A DNA stretch of 64,000 nucleotides, from positions 124,001-188,000 of the forward strand of contig JAFGBM010000010.1 in the NCBI GenBank assembly GCA_016933155.1. The letters are read 5' to 3'. This document shows, piece after piece, positions 33,022 to 64,000 of this stretch. This stretch comes from Demequinaceae bacterium (GTDB lineage Bacteria; Actinomycetota; Actinomycetes; Actinomycetales; Demequinaceae). Made by a program: the position numbers and the translations under genes. Below the pieces are notes generated by a model that was given only the letters and a program-made list of their open reading frames with translations, did not search any database and was not told the DNA's origin. Positions within the stretch are counted from its first letter, which is position 1. The number at the start of each line of letters is the position of its first letter.

Positions 33022-33650
33022 AGCCCTCTCTCCTCCGTATCAGATCGGGTCATACGTACTCCCGAATCGGCAATCCCCGCCAGAAAAGGCGAAGGCCCCT
33101 CGGAGTAAGCGTCCGAGGGGCCCTGCCATGGTCTCGAGTCCTCGAAACCCGTCGGTTGCCCGACAGGACCGAATACCGCTATTGACGATGCGGCGCCGTG
33201 CCTCGCGGCACGACCTCTCGACCTACCATCCGGGCCCGTCAGCCCCTGTGCCGTCACCCACAGTTCTCGGTGCTGCCCCGAAGGGCTCGACCTCGACGTG
33301 GACCGCCGTTGTCCAGATGGCCCAGGATCTCGATCATCCGCTCCGCCGGTTGCCCGGCTTCACCGCAATGAACCTCGATCCCGATGCCCCTATGTCTAGT
33401 CCGTCGGCCATGCGCGACGCAAGCGGTTCCGGGGATCATTTTTCATCCACCTCTTCTTCACAGCGTTGTCCACCGATGTTCCCGTTGCGGCTCCGATTCT
33501 CAACAGCCATGTGGACAAAACTCGTGGACAAGCGTTTACCTTTCCCCTCCTCGACGGACCCGTGTGATCGATGACCGTCCCTTCGGGGCAGTAGACTGAG
33601 GCGCCTCTGTGCCGCCGATGACGGCGTTCTCTGACCCCTCCAAGGAAGAC
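33022..33650. other. 629-base non-coding stretch with hairpin and DnaA-box-like sites
   Basis: No convincing gene is present; short ORFs here lack conserved features or ribosome binding sites. It contains the second copy of the 30-base hairpin (33094-33122), three DnaA-box-like sequences at 33466-33474, 33510-33518 and 33523-33531 in a locally AT-richer stretch (33430-33545), and a -10-like TAGACT at 33592 for the exporter gene. Confidence 0.6.
33094..33122. repeat. Hairpin, copy 2 of the repeated 30-base element
   Basis: Same arms and loop as the copy at 32620 (GGCCCCTCGGA / GTAAGCG / TCCGAGGGGCC). It lies 72 bases upstream of the start of the 32674 gene, so the pair brackets that gene. Confidence 0.65.
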
Positions 33651-35387
33651 ATGACTCACTCCTTCGTGCCCCCGACCAGGCGACAGGTCAACCTCATCGT
33701 CCTCGCCCTGCTCGTCGGGATGTTCTTGGCCTCCCTCGACCAGATGGTCGTCGCCACCGCGATCCGGACCATCGGGGACGACCTCAACGGCCTCACCGTT
33801 CAGGCCTGGGTGACGACTGCCTACATGGTGGCGGCCACGCTGGCCACCCCGCTCTACGGCAAGCTCTCGGACATCTTCGGGCGGAAGCCCTTCTACGTGA
33901 CGGCGCTGGGGCTCTTCGTCCTGGGCTCGACCCTCTGTTCGTTCGCCGAGTCGATGTACGAGTTGGCGGCCTATCGCGCCATCCAGGGTGCCGGAGCCGG
34001 TGGCCTCATGGCTCTCGCCATCATGATCCTCGGAGACATCCTCGCTCCCCGCGAGCGGACACGTTACCAGGCCGCGTTCTTCGCCGTCTGGGGGGTCTCC
34101 TCCGTCCTTGGCCCCGTCCTCGGAGGCTTCTTCGCCGGCGCGGACCAGATCCTCGGAATCGCTGGCTGGCGTTGGATCTTCCTCCTCAACGTTCCCCTGG
34201 GAGCCGCGGCGCTGGTCCTCATCGTCCGGGTCCTTCACGTGCCCCACTTCGGGCATGCGACCGGCAGGATCGACTGGTCCGGCGTTTCGGCGCTGGTCGT
34301 GGCGATCGTTCCTCTGCTCGTCGTCCTCGAGCGGGGAAACGACTGGGGCTGGAGGTCATCCAGTTCTCTCATGCTCTTCGCGATCTCCCTGGTCGGATGG
34401 GTGGCCTTCGTGGCCATCGAACGCTCGGAAGGGGACGACGCTCTGCTTCCCCTGAGGATGTTCCGGGTTCGGACGGTCGCGATTGCCAACATCGTGAACT
34501 TCATCATGGGATTCGCCATGTTCGGCGGGCTGGCCGGCCTTCCGCTCTACCTCCAGATCTCCCGGGGCATGTCACCCACTCGGGCGGGGCTCGCCATGAT
34601 CCCCTTCACCGTCGGCATCCTGCTGGCTTCGGTTGTCGCGACGAGGATCATCCACATCACTCTTCGATACAAGTGGCTTCCCGTCGTCGGGGCTTTCCTC
34701 CTCATCGTCGGAACCCTCCTACTGTCGCTCCTCAGCTACGACTCGCCGTTCTCGGACATAGCGGTGTATGGGATCGTCTTCGGTTCAGGCCTCGGCTGCA
34801 TCATGCAGCCCCTGTTGCTCGCCGTGCAGAACGCCCTCCCCGCGAAGGACAACGGGGCCGGGACGGCCTCCGTGATGTTCTCCCGGCAGATCGGGGGTTC
34901 ACTCGGGGCCGCCGTCTTCCTGTCCATCCTCTTTGGAACGGTTGCGGACCGGATCAAGGGCGCCTTCCTTCGGGCCTCCGAGACCCCGGCCTTCCAGTCG
35001 GCGGCTTCCGACCCGGCGGTCGTCTCGAGCGGGAAGAATGGCGTCGTGCTCCAGGCCCTCGCCACGGGGGACCTCGCCCAGGCGGAGGCCGCGGGAGTCT
35101 CCCTCGACGACACGTCGTTCCTCCAGGACCTGCACCCCGAGATCGCCGCCCCCTTCCGCATCGGTTTCTCCGATGCGATCAACGGGGTCATGCTCATCGC
35201 CGCGGCCATCATCGTCGTCTCCTTCGTCATCTCGTTCTTCCTGCCCTCGCTTCGTCTCAGCGAGAAGTCCGGGCTGGAGAACCTCCTGGACGAGAAGGCT
35301 GCGGCCGCCGATGCCGAACGGCTGGCGCAGGCGGATGCTGGCGAAGCCGAACCGACTCGCGTACCCACCTCACCACCGGCAGGTTAG
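33651..35387 (+). CDS. MFS multidrug exporter (DHA2/EmrB type, 14 helices)
   Basis: A 578-residue exporter of the 14-helix drug:H+ antiporter family. The first helix (LIVLALLVGMFLASLDQMVVATAIRTI) holds the LDxT/MVVxxALP-type motif, motif A is GKLSDIFGRKPFY, and motif C lies in VWGVSSVLGPVLGGFFAG. Helices continue to VSFVISFFLPSL, followed by a charged C-terminal tail rich in Ala/Glu (EKAAAADAERLAQADAGE). ATG 33651 was chosen for its AAGGAAG site, but GTG 33609 and ATG 33618 are in frame. It is convergent with the E2 gene, overlapping by 4 bases. Confidence 0.9.
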   Translation: MTHSFVPPTRRQVNLIVLALLVGMFLASLDQMVVATAIRTIGDDLNGLTVQAWVTTAYMVAATLATPLYGKLSDIFGRKPFYVTALGLFVLGSTLCSFAESMYELAAYRAIQGAGAGGLMALAIMILGDILAPRERTRYQAAFFAVWGVSSVLGPVLGGFFAGADQILGIAGWRWIFLLNVPLGAAALVLIVRVLHVPHFGHATGRIDWSGVSALVVAIVPLLVVLERGNDWGWRSSSSLMLFAISLVGWVAFVAIERSEGDDALLPLRMFRVRTVAIANIVNFIMGFAMFGGLAGLPLYLQISRGMSPTRAGLAMIPFTVGILLASVVATRIIHITLRYKWLPVVGAFLLIVGTLLLSLLSYDSPFSDIAVYGIVFGSGLGCIMQPLLLAVQNALPAKDNGAGTASVMFSRQIGGSLGAAVFLSILFGTVADRIKGAFLRASETPAFQSAASDPAVVSSGKNGVVLQALATGDLAQAEAAGVSLDDTSFLQDLHPEIAAPFRIGFSDAINGVMLIAAAIIVVSFVISFFLPSLRLSEKSGLENLLDEKAAAADAERLAQADAGEAEPTRVPTSPPAG

Positions 35388-56095: not shown

Positions 56096-59000
56096 TCACT
56101 CCGATGCAACGAAGCGCGCTCCCATGGCTTCCGCGGAATATCCACTTGAGACGCTCCACCATGTCACAGGGCTCAGGAAGGTGGATCCTGCGCCCGTTGA
56201 GAACCAAATATCAAGGTGCGCACCGTCTCCGTCGTCGTAGAGCGCGGCAATGTCGTGGCGGCCATCGTTATCGAAGTCACCAGCGATCATGCGGTTGTCT
56301 ACGTTCTCAAGGGTGTAGCCACCCTCACTGGCCCACCACCCGCTGGAGTCGGTGGGGGTGTAGTAGAACGACGAGCCGCGGGAGAGCCACACGTGGATTC
56401 GAGCTTCCCCTCCGTAGTCGTAAAACGTGGCGATATCATCTTGACCATCGGCATTGAAGTCACCTGCGACCATTCGATCAGCCACTTCGCCAAGGTCATA
56501 CCCGCTCGACGTATTCCACCAACCACCTACGCCCTTGAATTGGAACGACGTACCTTCGTCGGAAAGCCACACGTGGATTCGTGAAGCACCGTCTGCGAAT
56601 CCTTCGTAATCTCCGTAGTCATAGAACGTGGCGATGTCGTCGAAACCGTCGGCATTGAAATCCCCAGCGACCATGCGGTTGGCCACGTACTCAATGTCGT
56701 ACCCGCTCGACACGGCCCACCAACCACCTACGCCCGTGAACTGGAACGATGAATCGGTTGTTGATGCAAGCCACACATGGATCTGCGCACCCGACCCTGA
56801 GTCATAGAGTGTGGCGATTTCATCCCTACCATCATTGTTGAAGTCACCCGCGACCATACGGCCATCCACATTCGAAAGGTCATAGTCAGGATCACTCCAC
56901 CAACTACCGTCCCCGGAAGAGATTCCCGATCCCGTCGATAGCCCCACATCAATATGGGTAAAAGACCCATCCGAATACAGGGTCGCCACATCCGTCTTGC
57001 GATCACCATCAAAGTCACCGGTAACCGTGCGCCCGTCAACGGATTCGGAGGAGTACCCGTTCTCCACGTACCACCAGCCATCCGCGCGCTGATACTCGAG
57101 ACCAGGAGGTGTGGCGGACCATCTGTCAATACGTACACCGTCTCCGTCGTCGTAGAAAACGGCGAAGTCATCAGATCCATCAGCATCGAAATCACCGGCG
57201 ACCATACGGTCATCGACGTTCTCCAGAGCGTAGTCAGGCTCGCTGGCCCACCAACCGTCGGAGCCTGCGTAGTCGAACCTCGAATGACGCGATAGCCACA
57301 CGTGGGCTCGCACAGGATTGGTTTCGTCGTCGTAGAGCGTGGCGATGTCGTCGAAACCGTCGGCATTGAAATCACCCGTGACTACGCGGTCGGCCATGTA
57401 CTGAAGGTCGTAGTCGCCCTCACTGGCCCACCAACCATCCACGCCCGTGAATTGAAACGACGTACCGGTTGTCGATGCAAGCCACACGTGGATCCGCGAA
57501 TCACCGTCTTCGTAGCCTGGGTAGTCTCCGTAGTCATAGAACGTGGCAATATCATCCCGACCATCATTGTTGAAGTCACCCGCGACCATACGGTTGGCTA
57601 CTTTCTCAACGTCGTACCCGCTCGTAACACCCCACCAACTACCTTTGTAGTCGAACGACAAGCCGTCGGAACTCCACACGTGGATCTGAGCACCCGATCC
57701 GTAGTCGTAGAACGTGGCAATGTCATCGACACCATCAGCATTGAAGTCACCCGCGACCATACGTCCATCCACGGCATCAAGGGCATACCCGTTGTCTTCA
57801 TTCCACCAACTACCAGGCTCATCAAAATAACCACTCTGGAAGGTGAACCCCTCCCCTGTTGACAACCAAACGTCGACATATGCGCCGACATCGCTGTAGC
57901 GATAGAACGCGGCAATATCGTCCTTTTGATCACCATTGAAATCACCAGCGACCACACGGTCAGCCACGTTCTCAACGATGTAACCAGGATCGCTCCACCA
58001 ACTACCAACTCCAGGAGAGAACCCAGACCCTGACGAGAGTCCCACATCAATGTGCGCACCGGACCCATCCGAATACAAGATCGCTACATCCGCATCCCCA
58101 TCACCATCAAAGTCCCCCTCAACAGTGCGACCCTCCACTCGTTCCTCGAAAGACGCTGGCTCCGGAGTACTGATGAAATCATCCGACAGAGTCACAACCG
58201 CATCCGCAGCATCGAACTCGACACCAGTCCCGTTGTGATACCAGCCGTTGATGTGAGCTCCGTTTCCGTCGGCGTAGAACGTTGCGAAGTCGTGGGTTCC
58301 GTCGTTGTTGAAGTCGCCAGCGACCATACGGTTATCTACGTTCTCAAGGGCGTAATTGTCACTGGCCCACCAACCTTCGGAACCTTGGTAGGCGAACGAC
58401 GATCCTGTTGTCGACGCCTGCCAGACGTGTATCCGAGCACCCGCCCCGTAGTCGTAGAACGTGGCGATGTCGTCCCGGCCGTCTTCGTTGAAGTCACCCG
58501 CGACCATGCGGTCAGCCACTTGATTGAGGTCGTACCCGCTCGAGGCATACCACCAACTGGTGAGGCTGGGGAACGATGAACCATTTGAGAGCCACACGTG
58601 GATCCGTGCACTGCTTCCGTACTTGTAGAACGTGGCAATGTCATCCCGACCATCAGAATTGAAGTCACCTGCGACCATACGATCGGCTACGGAGCCACCA
58701 GGATACCCGCTTGAAACAGTCCACCAACTGTTGTCGTAGACGAACGACGAACCATTGGAACTCCACACGTGGATGAATACACCCGCATCTCCGTACTCAT
58801 AAAACGTGGCAATATCATCCAAATTTTCTGGGTCACCATCGAAGTTGCCGGCGACCATACGGCCATCCACGGAATCGAGATTGTACGTGGGTGCCAGAGT
58901 CCCCCAAACCGGATTCTCGTTCTCACCATCCTGAAGGGTGAACCCCGTGCCATCCGCATTCGACAACCAAACATCGAAATGCGAGCCGTTTACACCATCG

Positions 59001-60106
59001 CTGTAGATCACAGCGATGTCGTCCTTCTCATCGCTGTTGAATCTGCCAGCGACTATCCGATCAGCCACGTTCCCGAGGTCGTAACCATCCTTGCTCCACC
59101 ACGTATCGCCCTCGAAGAGGAACCCCGTCTCCGTCGAGAGCCCCACATCAATGTGCGCGCCGAACCCATCCGAATACAGGATCGCCACATCCGCATAGCC
59201 ATTTCCATCGAAGTCACCCTCAACAGTGCGGTCCCCCACTCGTTCCACAAAGGGCGCAGGCTCTGGATTGACAACGTAATCGTCTACAAGGACCACCTGC
59301 CCAACCCCAGAATCGAACGAGAAATCAGCTTCGCGTGACAACCAGGTGTCCGCAAAGGCTTCATTGCCGGAGACACTCAGTCCAAGGAGATCGGCCCGCC
59401 CGTCGCCATTTACATCATGATCAGGATTGGCATGGATGATGTCCGCAGCCTGCGCATTCGTGGAGTGTGCCGGATCATCTCTGTATGGCTCGTAACTTGG
59501 CTGCCACCAGGATGTGCTCTTCGTACCGCCCGCATCGCTGAAGGAGAAATGTATATGCCTCTCATGGAGGCAATCAGTTCCAGGCGCATAGTGCTGAACA
59601 CACCAACTCTCGTCATACTCGTTCAACTGCTCTGTACCCGCCGTCCAAATTTCGTCATTCCAGATGATCTGGTACACACCAAGACGCCGCAGTCGTTCAT
59701 GAGTCGCACCTGTTGGACCGGTGTCCAACAACCAGTCGAAGATCTCTGCAACCATTGCACTGTCTTCGGCGGATGAGGCGACGGCTGGCCAGTCCAGGGC
59801 AAGCCCTCTCGGGTGGTAGCTGCTTGGTGTGGAGTCTCCCTCGCAGGACCTCCACTTGCTGTTTGCCTCACCTCCATAGGAAGACTGCAAGATGTCTTCG
59901 AAAGCATCAATACCTGGCTGAGCGGCGGTCCTACATACACTCGCCGCAGCGGTCGGATACGCATCGACGATGGGGACCCCCACGGCAAGAGCGTGGGGCG
60001 CCGCCACAACGCGGAGAACTAGGGCACCGACGAGTGCAAAGAGAGCTGCAAATGCTCCCGCCTGGGTGGATGACCTCCGGCGCCGCACTAATGCGTTCCT
60101 GGACAT
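56096..60106 (-). CDS. Large secreted peptidase-like protein with 17 FG-GAP repeats
   Basis: A 1336-residue exported protein. The signal peptide has Arg-rich VRRRRSSTQ then GAFAALFALVGALVLRVVAAPHALA. Residues 45-200 form a domain with SSYHPRGLALDW and ERHIHFSF; the His...Asp...His spacing resembles D,D-peptidase/ARB-07466-type zinc folds, with peptidoglycan the likely substrate. The rest contains 17 tandem FG-GAP/VCBS units of about 65 residues, each like RMVAGDFNADGxDDIATFY, forming a calcium-binding propeller-type adhesin. Base composition is clearly more AT-rich than in neighbouring genes, suggesting acquisition or relaxed selection. ATG 60106 follows AAGGAGAG. It is convergent with xfp. 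Confidence 0.85.
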   Translation of the reverse strand: MSRNALVRRRRSSTQAGAFAALFALVGALVLRVVAAPHALAVGVPIVDAYPTAAASVCRTAAQPGIDAFEDILQSSYGGEANSKWRSCEGDSTPSSYHPRGLALDWPAVASSAEDSAMVAEIFDWLLDTGPTGATHERLRRLGVYQIIWNDEIWTAGTEQLNEYDESWCVQHYAPGTDCLHERHIHFSFSDAGGTKSTSWWQPSYEPYRDDPAHSTNAQAADIIHANPDHDVNGDGRADLLGLSVSGNEAFADTWLSREADFSFDSGVGQVVLVDDYVVNPEPAPFVERVGDRTVEGDFDGNGYADVAILYSDGFGAHIDVGLSTETGFLFEGDTWWSKDGYDLGNVADRIVAGRFNSDEKDDIAVIYSDGVNGSHFDVWLSNADGTGFTLQDGENENPVWGTLAPTYNLDSVDGRMVAGNFDGDPENLDDIATFYEYGDAGVFIHVWSSNGSSFVYDNSWWTVSSGYPGGSVADRMVAGDFNSDGRDDIATFYKYGSSARIHVWLSNGSSFPSLTSWWYASSGYDLNQVADRMVAGDFNEDGRDDIATFYDYGAGARIHVWQASTTGSSFAYQGSEGWWASDNYALENVDNRMVAGDFNNDGTHDFATFYADGNGAHINGWYHNGTGVEFDAADAVVTLSDDFISTPEPASFEERVEGRTVEGDFDGDGDADVAILYSDGSGAHIDVGLSSGSGFSPGVGSWWSDPGYIVENVADRVVAGDFNGDQKDDIAAFYRYSDVGAYVDVWLSTGEGFTFQSGYFDEPGSWWNEDNGYALDAVDGRMVAGDFNADGVDDIATFYDYGSGAQIHVWSSDGLSFDYKGSWWGVTSGYDVEKVANRMVAGDFNNDGRDDIATFYDYGDYPGYEDGDSRIHVWLASTTGTSFQFTGVDGWWASEGDYDLQYMADRVVTGDFNADGFDDIATLYDDETNPVRAHVWLSRHSRFDYAGSDGWWASEPDYALENVDDRMVAGDFDADGSDDFAVFYDDGDGVRIDRWSATPPGLEYQRADGWWYVENGYSSESVDGRTVTGDFDGDRKTDVATLYSDGSFTHIDVGLSTGSGISSGDGSWWSDPDYDLSNVDGRMVAGDFNNDGRDEIATLYDSGSGAQIHVWLASTTDSSFQFTGVGGWWAVSSGYDIEYVANRMVAGDFNADGFDDIATFYDYGDYEGFADGASRIHVWLSDEGTSFQFKGVGGWWNTSSGYDLGEVADRMVAGDFNADGQDDIATFYDYGGEARIHVWLSRGSSFYYTPTDSSGWWASEGGYTLENVDNRMIAGDFDNDGRHDIAALYDDGDGAHLDIWFSTGAGSTFLSPVTWWSVSSGYSAEAMGARFVASE

Positions 60107-60423
60107 GCGCTCTCCTTCACCTTGAAGCATGATGCCCGAACGCTAGCAGCCGATAGGCAAAGTCTGCATGCCGAACGGAAAAATCGCCAGCAATACTCCG
60201 GACAGTCCCGGCCAAACTCCCAGTCCGGGGCCGGAAATCCCTGCCACGAGCCTGCATGGCTTTGCCAGGCTCGACCGCCCTCGCCCGTGCTGTTCCCCCG
60301 ACTGACCTGCCCCCATGTTTGTTACCTGGGTAACCTGCCCGATTTTCCCAGGACCACCGTTCTGGACTCAGAGTGATCAACTACATTGAGAATCGGCCAA
60401 CTTCGATGAGAACCTATAAACCC
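60107..60423. other. 317-base non-coding region between dnaB and the FG-GAP gene
   Basis: No gene is seen. It includes the palindrome GTTACCTGGGTAAC (60321-60334, 6-base arms) and locally AT-rich DNA near 60360-60420. It presumably holds the promoter of the secreted-protein gene and the end of the dnaB transcript. I could not confirm a known riboswitch here. Confidence 0.5.
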
Positions 60424-61776
60424 CTACAGATCCGGGGCCATGTCGGTGAAGTGGGCGTAGTCCTTCTTGAAGGCCACGGCGAGGGTGTCGGTCGGGCCGT
60501 TGCGGTGCTTGGCGATGATGAAGTCGGCCTCACCGGGTCGGGCGTCGCGGTCGTAGGCGTCCTCGCGGTGGAGGAGGATCACCAGGTCGGCGTCCTGCTC
60601 GATCGAGCCGGACTCGCGCATGTCCGACAGCATGGGGCGCTTGTCGCCCCGCTGCTCCGGGCTCCGGTTGAGCTGCGAGATGGCGATGACCGGGACGTCG
60701 AGCTCCTTAGCGAGTAGTTTCAACGCCCGGGAGAACTCCGACACCTCCTGCTGGCGTGACTCGACCTTCTTCCCCGACGACATCAACTGAAGGTAGTCGA
60801 CGACCACGAGCCCCAGGTTCTCCCGCTGGGAGAGCCGCCGGCACTTCGCCCGGATCTCCATGAGTGACATGTTCGGCGAATCGTCGATGAACAGGGGTGC
60901 CTTGGAGACCCTGGCTGCCGTCCGGGCCAGCCGCTCCCAGTCGTTCGGCCCCATCGGGCCCTTCATCAGCCGGGTGAGCTTCACTCCGGACTCCGCCGAC
61001 AGCAGTCGCTTGGTGATCTCCTCCCGGCTCATCTCGAGGGAAAAGACCACGGACGTGATCCCCGTCCCGATCGCCGCCGCCCGACAGATGTCCAATCCCA
61101 GCGTCGACTTCCCCATCGAGGGTCGCGCCGCGATGACGATCATGTGCCCCTTCTGGAGGCCCCCCGTCATCTCGTCCAGGTCCCGGAACCCCGTCGGCAC
61201 GCCGAGTAGCTTCCCGTCGTGACTGGACGCGGCCTCGACCTCCCCCAAGGTCCTCTCCATGACGTCGCCGATGGGGAGGTAGTCCTCCGCGTTCTTCCGC
61301 TCCGTGACCGCGAAAACCTCGGCCTGCGCCGAATCGACGATGTCGTCGACGTCGCCATCGGCGGAATACCCCATGTTCGCGATCCGGGTGCCGGCCTCCA
61401 CCAACCGTCGAAGGATCGCCTGCTCCCGCACCAAGCGGGCATAGAACCCCGCCGAAGCCGCGGACGGCACGGCGGCGATGAGGGTGTGAAGGTATTCAGC
61501 CCCCCCGACCCGACCGAGGGCACCCTGCGCCTGAAGTTCGGCCGCGACGGTGATGGCGTCGACCGGGTTGCCCGACCGGAAGAGCTCGCCCGCCGCCTCA
61601 TAGATCAACTCGTGGGCGGGTTTGTAGAAGTCGTGGCCCCGGAGCACCTCGACGACATCCACCATGGCGTCCTTGGACAGCATGATCGCGCCCAGGACGC
61701 TCTGCTCGGCCTCGAGGTTCTGCGGGGGTCGTCGATCGAAGCCGCTCACCACGGCCGTGAACTCCTCGACGGTCAC
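60424..61776 (-). CDS. dnaB: Replicative DNA helicase DnaB
   Basis: A 450-residue hexameric helicase. The N-terminal primase-interaction domain (EAEQSVLGAIMLSKDAMVDV ... DFYKPAHELIYEA) is followed by a linker and a RecA-like motor: Walker A ARPSMGKSTLGL near 215, FSLEMSREEI, LGLVVVDYLQLM (Walker B), SRALKLLAKELDVPVIAISQLNR, and the Arg finger region ADLVILLHREDAYD. No intein is present. The start is GTG 61776, with GGAGGAGA 6 bases upstream. It follows rplI in the conserved actinobacterial order but is separated from it by 401 bases. Confidence 0.95.
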   Translation of the reverse strand: MTVEEFTAVVSGFDRRPPQNLEAEQSVLGAIMLSKDAMVDVVEVLRGHDFYKPAHELIYEAAGELFRSGNPVDAITVAAELQAQGALGRVGGAEYLHTLIAAVPSAASAGFYARLVREQAILRRLVEAGTRIANMGYSADGDVDDIVDSAQAEVFAVTERKNAEDYLPIGDVMERTLGEVEAASSHDGKLLGVPTGFRDLDEMTGGLQKGHMIVIAARPSMGKSTLGLDICRAAAIGTGITSVVFSLEMSREEITKRLLSAESGVKLTRLMKGPMGPNDWERLARTAARVSKAPLFIDDSPNMSLMEIRAKCRRLSQRENLGLVVVDYLQLMSSGKKVESRQQEVSEFSRALKLLAKELDVPVIAISQLNRSPEQRGDKRPMLSDMRESGSIEQDADLVILLHREDAYDRDARPGEADFIIAKHRNGPTDTLAVAFKKDYAHFTDMAPDL

Positions 61777-62177
61777 CGTCTCTCCTCCAATATTCCAGGC
61801 GCAAGCCACGCCACTCCTACCGCTCCCTGCCAGGATCCCTCCACCGTCCGACATGCCAACGGCCCGGCATTCGACGACGATGTCTGACAGGCGACGCTAG
61901 CCCGGTCGAGGGTCGAGCGCAAACACCCACCCGGGAGACGGTGTGGATGGTTGGGCCAGTTCCGTGGACCGCCTGTGGGTAACCCCCCAAGGCTTCGCCC
62001 CAGCCTGTGGATACAGGTGTGAATCTCGGGGTTGCCACCCCCCCGATCAGCCATATACCAGGGAAAACACCGCCGACACCCCTGGGGACAGCCCCTGGGG
62101 AAATACCCCCGGCGTGTCGCCCCGGCGTGTCGCAGATCACACCCGATCTCCGGGGTCGGATCCCGCGAATCCCCCGC
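61777..62177. other. 401-base dnaB-rplI intergenic region with evenly spaced DnaA-box-like sites
   Basis: TGTGGATGG (61942), TGTGGGTAA (61974) and TGTGGATAC (62006) lie in the same orientation with starts exactly 32 bases apart, with a weaker CGTGGACCG at 63-71 of that stretch (61963). The nearest matches to the consensus TTATNCACA on the other strand have one mismatch. Several GC-rich repeats (CCCCTGGGGA) follow at 62080-62105. No gene is evident. Confidence 0.55.
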
Positions 62178-62624
62178 CTATTCGGCCGAAATCACCGTCA
62201 CGGTCACGGTCGCACTGACCCCGTCGTGCAGGCCGACCTCGACCTCATGGTCACCCAGGTCCTTGATGGGGCGGGCCAGGTGGATGCGACGCTTGTCCAC
62301 AACGGCCCGGTCCCCGATCGCCTTGGCGATGTCGGCCGTCGTCACGGCGCCGAAGAGACGCCCCGATTCCCCGGCCTTTGCGACGACGATGACGGGGGCC
62401 GACTGGAGCGCATCCCGGGCGGCCTGAGCCTCCTCGACGCTCTCGAGCGCCTTGGCGCGTCGGGCCTTCCTCATCGCCTCGATCTGCTTCTCCGCGCCGC
62501 CGGACCACGCCGTCGCCAGCTTCCGCGGCATGAGGAAGTTCCGGGCGTACCCGTCCTTCACCTCGACCACGTCGCCCGCGACGCCCAGCCCGGACACCTC
62601 ATGCGTCAGGATCACCTTTGCCAT
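62178..62624 (-). CDS. rplI: 50S ribosomal protein L9
   Basis: A 148-residue ribosomal protein, full length for L9. The N-terminal domain VILTHEVSGLGVAGDVVEVKDGYARNFLMPRKLA, in parts, binds 23S rRNA and is the family signature; the central long helix and C-terminal domain (RLFGAVTTADIAKAI) follow. The ATG at 62624 begins 8 bases after rpsR ends, in the operon rpsF-ssb-rpsR-rplI. Confidence 0.95.
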   Translation of the reverse strand: MAKVILTHEVSGLGVAGDVVEVKDGYARNFLMPRKLATAWSGGAEKQIEAMRKARRAKALESVEEAQAARDALQSAPVIVVAKAGESGRLFGAVTTADIAKAIGDRAVVDKRRIHLARPIKDLGDHEVEVGLHDGVSATVTVTVISAE

Positions 62625-63818: not shown

Positions 63819-64000
63819 TTACGGGCTGGCGACCGGGGTGACGACGGGCGACGGGGTGACGACGGGCGACGGGCTGGGGCTCGGGCTCGGGCTCGGGCTG
63901 GGGCTCGGGCTCGGGCTGGGGCTCGGGCTCGGGCTGGGCGACGGGCTGGGGATGATCGCCTCGCCGATGTAGCTCCTCGAGGGGAACTGCTCGACCGGGA
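63819..64000 (-). CDS. 3' end of a penicillin-binding protein/transglycosylase-like gene
   Basis: Only the last about 60 codons are inside the window. The reading frame ends ...VEQFPSRSYIGEAIIPSP followed by a long Ser-Pro tract (SPSPSPSP...), VVTPSPVVTPVASP and TAA at 63819. A folded end with a Ser-Pro tail is typical of bifunctional PBP/transglycosylases, which in actinobacteria are commonly encoded just upstream of rpsF. The repeat is encoded by a (GCTCGG)n-type DNA tract. The product name rests mainly on gene order and is therefore tentative. Confidence 0.6.
   Translation of the reverse strand, partial: PVEQFPSRSYIGEAIIPSPSPSPSPSPSPSPSPSPSPSPSPSPSPVVTPSPVVTPVASP
63876..63950. repeat. GC-rich hexanucleotide microsatellite encoding Ser-Pro repeats
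   Basis: A run of GGGCTC/GGGGCTC-like units, encoding the Ser-Pro tail of the partial gene on the minus strand. Such tracts are prone to slippage and sequencing or assembly error. Confidence 0.7.

Follow-up and report, generated by a model that had tools for sequence, protein, structure and literature searches.

We found that the gap between rplI and dnaB in the genome of a Demequinaceae bacterium holds an array of DnaA-box-like sites, which are oriented alike on the dnaB-sense strand, follow a helical lattice, are conserved across the class, lie upstream of a putative promoter and sit away from the GC-skew minimum; we consider it probable that DnaA controls dnaB through this array. The window, that is, the whole stretch of 64,000 nucleotides analyzed (G000:C12:124001-188000), comes from a genome of 1.885 Mb in 15 contigs, and the nearest named relatives of its DnaB are from Demequina and Demequinaceae. 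Profile matches give the minus-strand gene order rpsF-ssb-rpsR-rplI-gap-dnaB, with dnaB, the replicative helicase gene, at 60424-61776 (TIGR00665, 1.1e-160) and rplI, encoding ribosomal protein L9, at 62178-62624 (TIGR00158, 1.5e-35); these matches bear out an earlier note on this DNA, which had placed three box-like sites between the two genes. The start of dnaB is likely the GTG at 61776-61774, which has an AGGAG-type ribosome site before it, as judged from the point near which similarity among relatives begins and from reading of the sequence, while the ATG at 61854 that opens the longest dnaB ORF is probably spurious. With the GTG as start, the rplI-dnaB gap would be about 400 bp. A structured RNA reading of the gap was dropped, since the Rfam search returned a single sub-threshold match attributable to chance. 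On the far side of dnaB lies a 1344-aa ORF (56096-60130), where the GC content is lower (0.56), with many repeats that we read as FG-GAP/VCBS-like and with XAC2610 as its sole family match; a low-complexity run at 63870-63960 encodes, on the minus strand, a tail of Pro-Glu-Pro-Gln repeats in the gene that lies past rpsF.

We scored boxes against TTRTCCACA on the minus (dnaB-sense) strand and called those matching at least 8 of 9 positions near-consensus. The plus-strand words TGTGGATGG, TGTGGGTAA and TGTGGATAC that the earlier note had reported in one orientation at 61942, 61974 and 62006 are there exactly as described, and read on the minus strand as the boxes CCATCCACA (61942-61950; 7/9), TTACCCACA (61974-61982; 8/9) and GTATCCACA (62006-62014; 8/9). 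These three sites are part of a longer minus-strand array with weaker partner boxes. Weak box CGGTCCACG (61963-61971; 6/9) occupies the position of a TCATCCACG box conserved in relatives; its spacing is 11 bp to the box at 61974, which leaves a 2-bp gap, and 21 bp to the one at 61942. Weak box AGATTCACA (62018-62026; 6/9) lies 12 bp from GTATCCACA (3-bp gap). The array spacings are 12, 32, 11 and 21 bp, one of the two 32-bp intervals being 11+21 with CGGTCCACG between, and the sites include two close same-direction pairs with gaps of 2-3 bp (62006/62018 and 61963/61974), each with one weak (6/9) member. An outlying minus-strand box, CTGTCCCCA (62083-62091; 7/9), falls at a conserved TTnTCCmCAG position. 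The close-pair pattern is rare, with three matches in the genome: the dnaB gap, the gap between dnaA and dnaN, and a third pair, ATCCACACAGTTATCCACA, at G000:C15:20704-20722 (L003), some 11 kb past the second of these.

We considered that the resemblance to DnaA boxes might have arisen by chance in this GC-rich gap, with the 32-32 spacing a coincidence. The boxes of the window are weak, the main three matching 7-8 of 9 positions and none being perfect; the window holds 0 perfect boxes of the form TTWTNCACA, one-mismatch versions of TGTGGATAC show no enrichment over the window as a whole (4 against an expected 6.4), and the 32-bp interval is not conserved. Nevertheless, just 0.1% of 5000 dinucleotide shuffles of 61855-62177 had two or more same-strand boxes scoring 8/9 or better, and from these counts we conclude that the cluster exceeds chance; three 7/9 boxes at exactly 32-32 were found in none of the 5000, in a spacing test set after the data had been seen. 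Together with the scrambled-word controls, the class-wide conservation and the phasing described below, the shuffles refute a chance origin at the family level, and we regard it as very improbable. By box count, the interval 33150-33850 is denser than the dnaB locus (4 versus 3 per 400-bp window in 184 kb scanned), and one of the 3 near-consensus boxes counted at the dnaB locus sits inside rplI. A perfect TTGTCCACA occurs on the plus strand within the rplI coding sequence (62293-62301). The densest near-consensus box place in the 184 kb scanned, at 33309-33531, comprises four words (TTGTCCAGA, TTGTCCACC, TTGTCCACA and TTGTCCACG), with a 13-bp distance between two of them. The words immediately precede a 592-aa ORF at 33609 that we read as membrane transporter-like.

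The array is conserved. We compared the dnaB upstream regions of all 37 Demequinaceae genomes at hand, along with other loci, after removing exact duplicate regions. Of 40 distinct Demequinaceae regions, 39 have at least two near-consensus boxes before dnaB (mean 4.08 per 500 bp over the 40, compared to 0.10 in shuffles), as do 75 of 80 other actinomycete loci (mean 3.64 per 500 bp, n=80, compared to 0.12), fewer being found in 5/80; dnaB itself and the sequence downstream give a background of 0.056 per 500 bp. A class-wide set of 58 regions from 28 families, chosen from 118 genomes at 1-5 per family with an N-terminal match required (families f24, f38 and f48 were left out for want of a usable listed N-terminal match or because the match lay at a contig edge), had at least two boxes in 49 regions and fewer in 9. 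These 58 regions contain 135 dnaB-sense boxes, whereas scrambled consensus words gave a mean of 1.2 and a maximum of 8. Outside the class, by comparison, at least two boxes were found in 4 of 20 regions from other classes of the phylum, these 20 being drawn from a set of 80 genomes. From the class-wide and outside counts, the array is mainly a trait of one class. Conservation in relatives had been proposed earlier as a check on the boxes, and by all three counts (39/40, 75/80 and 49/58) they are kept.

What is conserved is the helical phase of the boxes. The earlier note had read the 32-bp spacing, about three turns, as placing the boxes on one face of the helix, a phasing typical of DnaA regulatory clusters or origins. 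The spacing is exact in the window, but 32 bp is not itself conserved, as relatives mostly show 12, 23, 11, 21-22 and 65, and we rejected the literal interval as a conserved feature. In Demequinaceae, spacings between neighbors pile up at 11-12, 21-23, 32-34, 43-45, 54-56, 65 and 77-78 bp, 11 and 12 being the commonest short spacings in relatives, and the best period is 10.8 bp (R 0.84, 152 spacings). The 80 other loci also have a period of 10.8 (R 0.71-0.80), and random placements reached R of at most 0.28 to 0.39 for these two sets; in the 58 class-wide regions the period is 10.8-10.9 with R 0.78-0.79, homology among related regions inflating R in the larger sets. With one region per family, R for 7/9 boxes is 0.78 at 10.9 bp, compared to a maximum of 0.53 in 500 nulls, while for 8/9 boxes R, at 0.78, equals the 99% point of the nulls (0.78), a borderline result from about 28 spacings. 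The idea of a regulatory cluster phased on one face is supported by this 10.8-10.9 bp period and by the class-wide conservation.

Alignment of 33 Demequinaceae regions revealed a common order of elements: GACACGCC-spacer-GACACGCC, TTnTCCmCAG, CCTGGTA, a box pair AtcCACAnnnTtGTCCACA and 2-4 further boxes, followed at the promoter-side end by TTTG, about 17 bp, TAnnnT, and then GCGTGTCAGAC. On this alignment rests the dnaB promoter that we name on the minus strand of the window: a putative -35 element TTGCGC (61917-61922) in a conserved TTTGnG block, a 17-bp spacer, a putative -10 element TAGCGT (61894-61899) at the conserved TAnnnT, and a conserved GCGTGTCAGAC-type block, CTGTCAGACA (61881-61890), at what would be the transcription start. 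A scan for sigma-70 consensus promoters and terminators reported none and missed the putative -10 TAGCGT as well.

The putative -35 element is left free by the DnaA-box array, which lies upstream of it. This placement, together with the box pairs and with precedents in Mycobacterium tuberculosis and Caulobacter, makes activation the most likely sign of the DnaA effect on dnaB, although we are less sure of the sign than of the control array itself. In M. tuberculosis, IDAP-seq with purified DnaA identified five DnaA regions in the whole genome, one of them upstream of dnaB, and in M. smegmatis ChIP-seq of tagged DnaA in cells likewise identified five, one upstream of dnaB (PMC7738170); these mycobacterial results also favor the regulatory cluster proposed in the earlier note. 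Moreover, the M. tuberculosis DnaA I282T mutant combines weaker binding upstream of dnaB with under-expression of dnaB (PMC7738170), and dnaB is part of the Caulobacter DnaA regulon (PMC8203912, citing Hottes 2005). In E. coli, DnaA binds by preference to paired boxes separated by 2 or 3 bp, and a mutation in either box of the pair disrupts binding (PMC11317965). Conceivably the array instead acts as a brake and represses dnaB, since DnaA is known both as an activator and as a repressor (PMC8203912) and box positions alone leave the sign undecided. We judge this unlikely, given that the boxes stand clear of the -35 element and that it is lower dnaB expression that accompanies weaker DnaA binding in the mutant.

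A cluster of DnaA boxes might also mark a replication origin, a possibility that the earlier note had raised while observing that dnaA and dnaN are outside the window. Both genes are indeed elsewhere, on contig C15, with dnaA from 7975 and dnaN behind it. For the skew profile we appended C15, from its start, to the end of C12, because several relatives have dnaA-dnaB distances of 30-50 kb; if the contigs join as this synteny suggests, the array is about 35 kb from dnaA-dnaN. The cumulative GC-skew minimum falls in the 4-kb bin of dnaA-dnaN, and the skew declines through the dnaB locus, where it is negative on average (in two sampled Demequina genomes the skew was too weak to use). The suggestion of an origin in the dnaB gap was not borne out: of the marks of an origin, the array has the box cluster and lacks the skew minimum, and we rejected it as the main origin because the minimum lies at dnaA-dnaN. 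The earlier note would have abandoned its proposal had the minimum lain elsewhere and the boxes been unconserved; the minimum does lie elsewhere, but the boxes are conserved.

That the region is an origin, or a second origin, is suggested by what it has in common with the dnaA-dnaN gap, namely a box array, close pairs and a CCTGGTA element. Boxes also occur in the dnaA-dnaN gap itself, among them TTACCCACA, the word of the box at 61974, and a TTCACA pair at 12 bp. The CCTGGTAT element upstream of dnaB (62055-62062, or to 62063, minus strand) is conserved and recurs as ATACCAGG in the dnaA-dnaN gap, the latter word being common to both gaps (L001 2021-2030); we found CWGGTA in 29 of the 37 dnaB regions and TACCWG in 12 of the 30 from dnaA-dnaN, where the coding sequence of dnaB gives a background of 0.03 per 420 bp. 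Against an origin, in addition to the skew, several dnaA-dnaN gap sequences have a CCTATGACnACTACTCAC-like block that is unseen in the dnaB alignment, and the dnaB region has no AT-rich advantage, its AT content being similar to that of dnaA-dnaN regions. Triplet runs of 3 were found in 4/30 dnaA-dnaN and 0/37 dnaB regions, a crude count that separates the two weakly. We consider any origin function here highly improbable.

A different role is that of an oriC-proximal site for DnaA titration or inactivation, similar to datA, for which the position at dnaB would be secondary. Like sites of the datA/DARS type, the array is a non-coding box cluster outside oriC; it would be about 35 kb from dnaA-dnaN on the synteny-based join, and near-oriC clusters are cited as repressing untimely initiation in Bacillus subtilis and Streptomyces coelicolor (PMC4585315). 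Demequinaceae also have a mean of 4.11 near-consensus boxes in 37 dnaB regions, compared to 1.43 in the first 420 bp of 30 dnaA-dnaN gaps. In the genome of the window, however, the numbers are equal, with 2 in the dnaB region and 2 in the dnaA-dnaN gap. Furthermore, in many actinomycete loci the array is directly upstream of dnaB with no rplI adjacent in the stretch fetched, which points to dnaB, and the M. tuberculosis mutant ties binding at the site to dnaB expression (PMC7738170). Titration as the main function is possible but, we think, rather doubtful; it is compatible with control of dnaB as a second role of the array.

Farther upstream, the minus strand carries a direct repeat, GACACGCC-N5-GACACGCC (62111-62131), which is the sole match in the genome and a candidate site for a second regulator, with a GACAC core of the WhiA type. 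Of 37 Demequinaceae, 36 carry GACACGCC-N5-8-GACACGCC upstream of dnaB and the remaining one has a one-base variant; pairs are also found upstream of dnaB in L015 and L076, and in G043 about 500 bp before the dnaB match. We examined 27 loci with extra pairs, of which 9 precede folC and 2 precede pyrG. The folC pairs have the form GACACGCC-N7-GACACGCC and lie about 120 bp upstream of the gene in nine Demequinaceae genomes (L196, L199, L289, L291, L292, L295, L297, L301 and L302), hinting at a small regulon with dnaB. Single pairs were also seen between divergent dnaE and hrpA in G024 (L294 1101-1120) and before a guanine-deaminase-like gene (L285).

The GACACGCC pair is perhaps a WhiA site. GACAC is the WhiA core, and the largest S. 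venezuelae WhiA peak is at pyrG (PMC3781837); the window genome has whiA as well as the GACAC core in the putative dnaB promoter region. GACAC alone is weak evidence, since S. venezuelae has some 15,000 copies of it (PMC4850268), and the word dnaB is absent from the S. venezuelae WhiA/WhiB regulon texts (PMC3781837, PMC4850268). Of 22 pyrG loci read in Demequinaceae, only 1 has the pair, to which G029 adds another, and so we regard WhiA as only a candidate; WhiA as certain owner of GACACGCC was not upheld, the pyrG target being confined to one Demequina clade.

Taken as a DnaA control array, the boxes suggest a mechanism in which the rplI-dnaB gap would serve as the dnaB promoter region. In this bacterium DnaA would bind the same-direction boxes, nucleating at the close pairs with 2-3 bp gaps, and assemble on a single face of the helix, immediately before the -35 element of dnaB. 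The resulting oligomer would activate dnaB, such that helicase supply follows DnaA activity, and the array may additionally titrate DnaA. A second regulator in Demequinaceae is suggested by the GACACGCC pairs, which lie roughly 100 bp farther from the gene.

DnaA binding at dnaB is already known in mycobacteria; what is new here is the class-wide phasing of the array and the family-specific GACACGCC partner motif, neither of which we found reported in the open-licence literature searched. The sequence record suggests that the mycobacterial DnaA-dnaB wiring is kept across the whole class, on a strict helical lattice even though individual spacings vary. If helical phasing governs control, insertions of half a turn should break it and those of a full turn should not. 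More speculatively, the class may possess a DnaA-to-helicase switch that reads active DnaA and sets the supply of helicase, with a second Demequinaceae factor on GACACGCC pairs, WhiA or another protein, tying dnaB to genes of folate, nucleotide and polymerase function (folC, pyrG and dnaE in some members), and with more near-consensus boxes in the Demequinaceae array than in the dnaA-dnaN gap; we offer this only tentatively. The array offers a route to how cells match helicase supply to initiation, which is little studied outside model species.

Among known systems, the M. tuberculosis Rv0057-dnaB site and its M. smegmatis counterpart resemble the array in having a DnaA region directly upstream of dnaB (PMC7738170), although they were established by experiment and the array is known from sequence. 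DnaA binding and a change in transcription, shown in mycobacteria only, are predicted here; the array does have a box cluster beyond chance, close same-direction pairs and conservation at the orthologous gene, as would a DnaA-controlled promoter. The GACACGCC pairs set the array apart from the mycobacterial dnaB site, being mainly a Demequinaceae trait in our data. Their GACAC core is shared with the S. venezuelae WhiA/WhiB regulon (PMC3781837, PMC4850268), and whiA is in the window genome too, whereas the pyrG target is common to one Demequina clade only. The S. coelicolor and B. subtilis clusters are, like the array, outside oriC yet near it (PMC4585315). In Caulobacter, dnaB is likewise under DnaA control, but in a distant phylum (PMC8203912, PMC7738170; citing Hottes 2005). 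Finally, the double boxes of E. coli (PMC11317965) share the close same-direction pairs, 11-12 bp from start to start, whereas the pairs here are chained into a longer lattice, an array of at most about 6-8 boxes.
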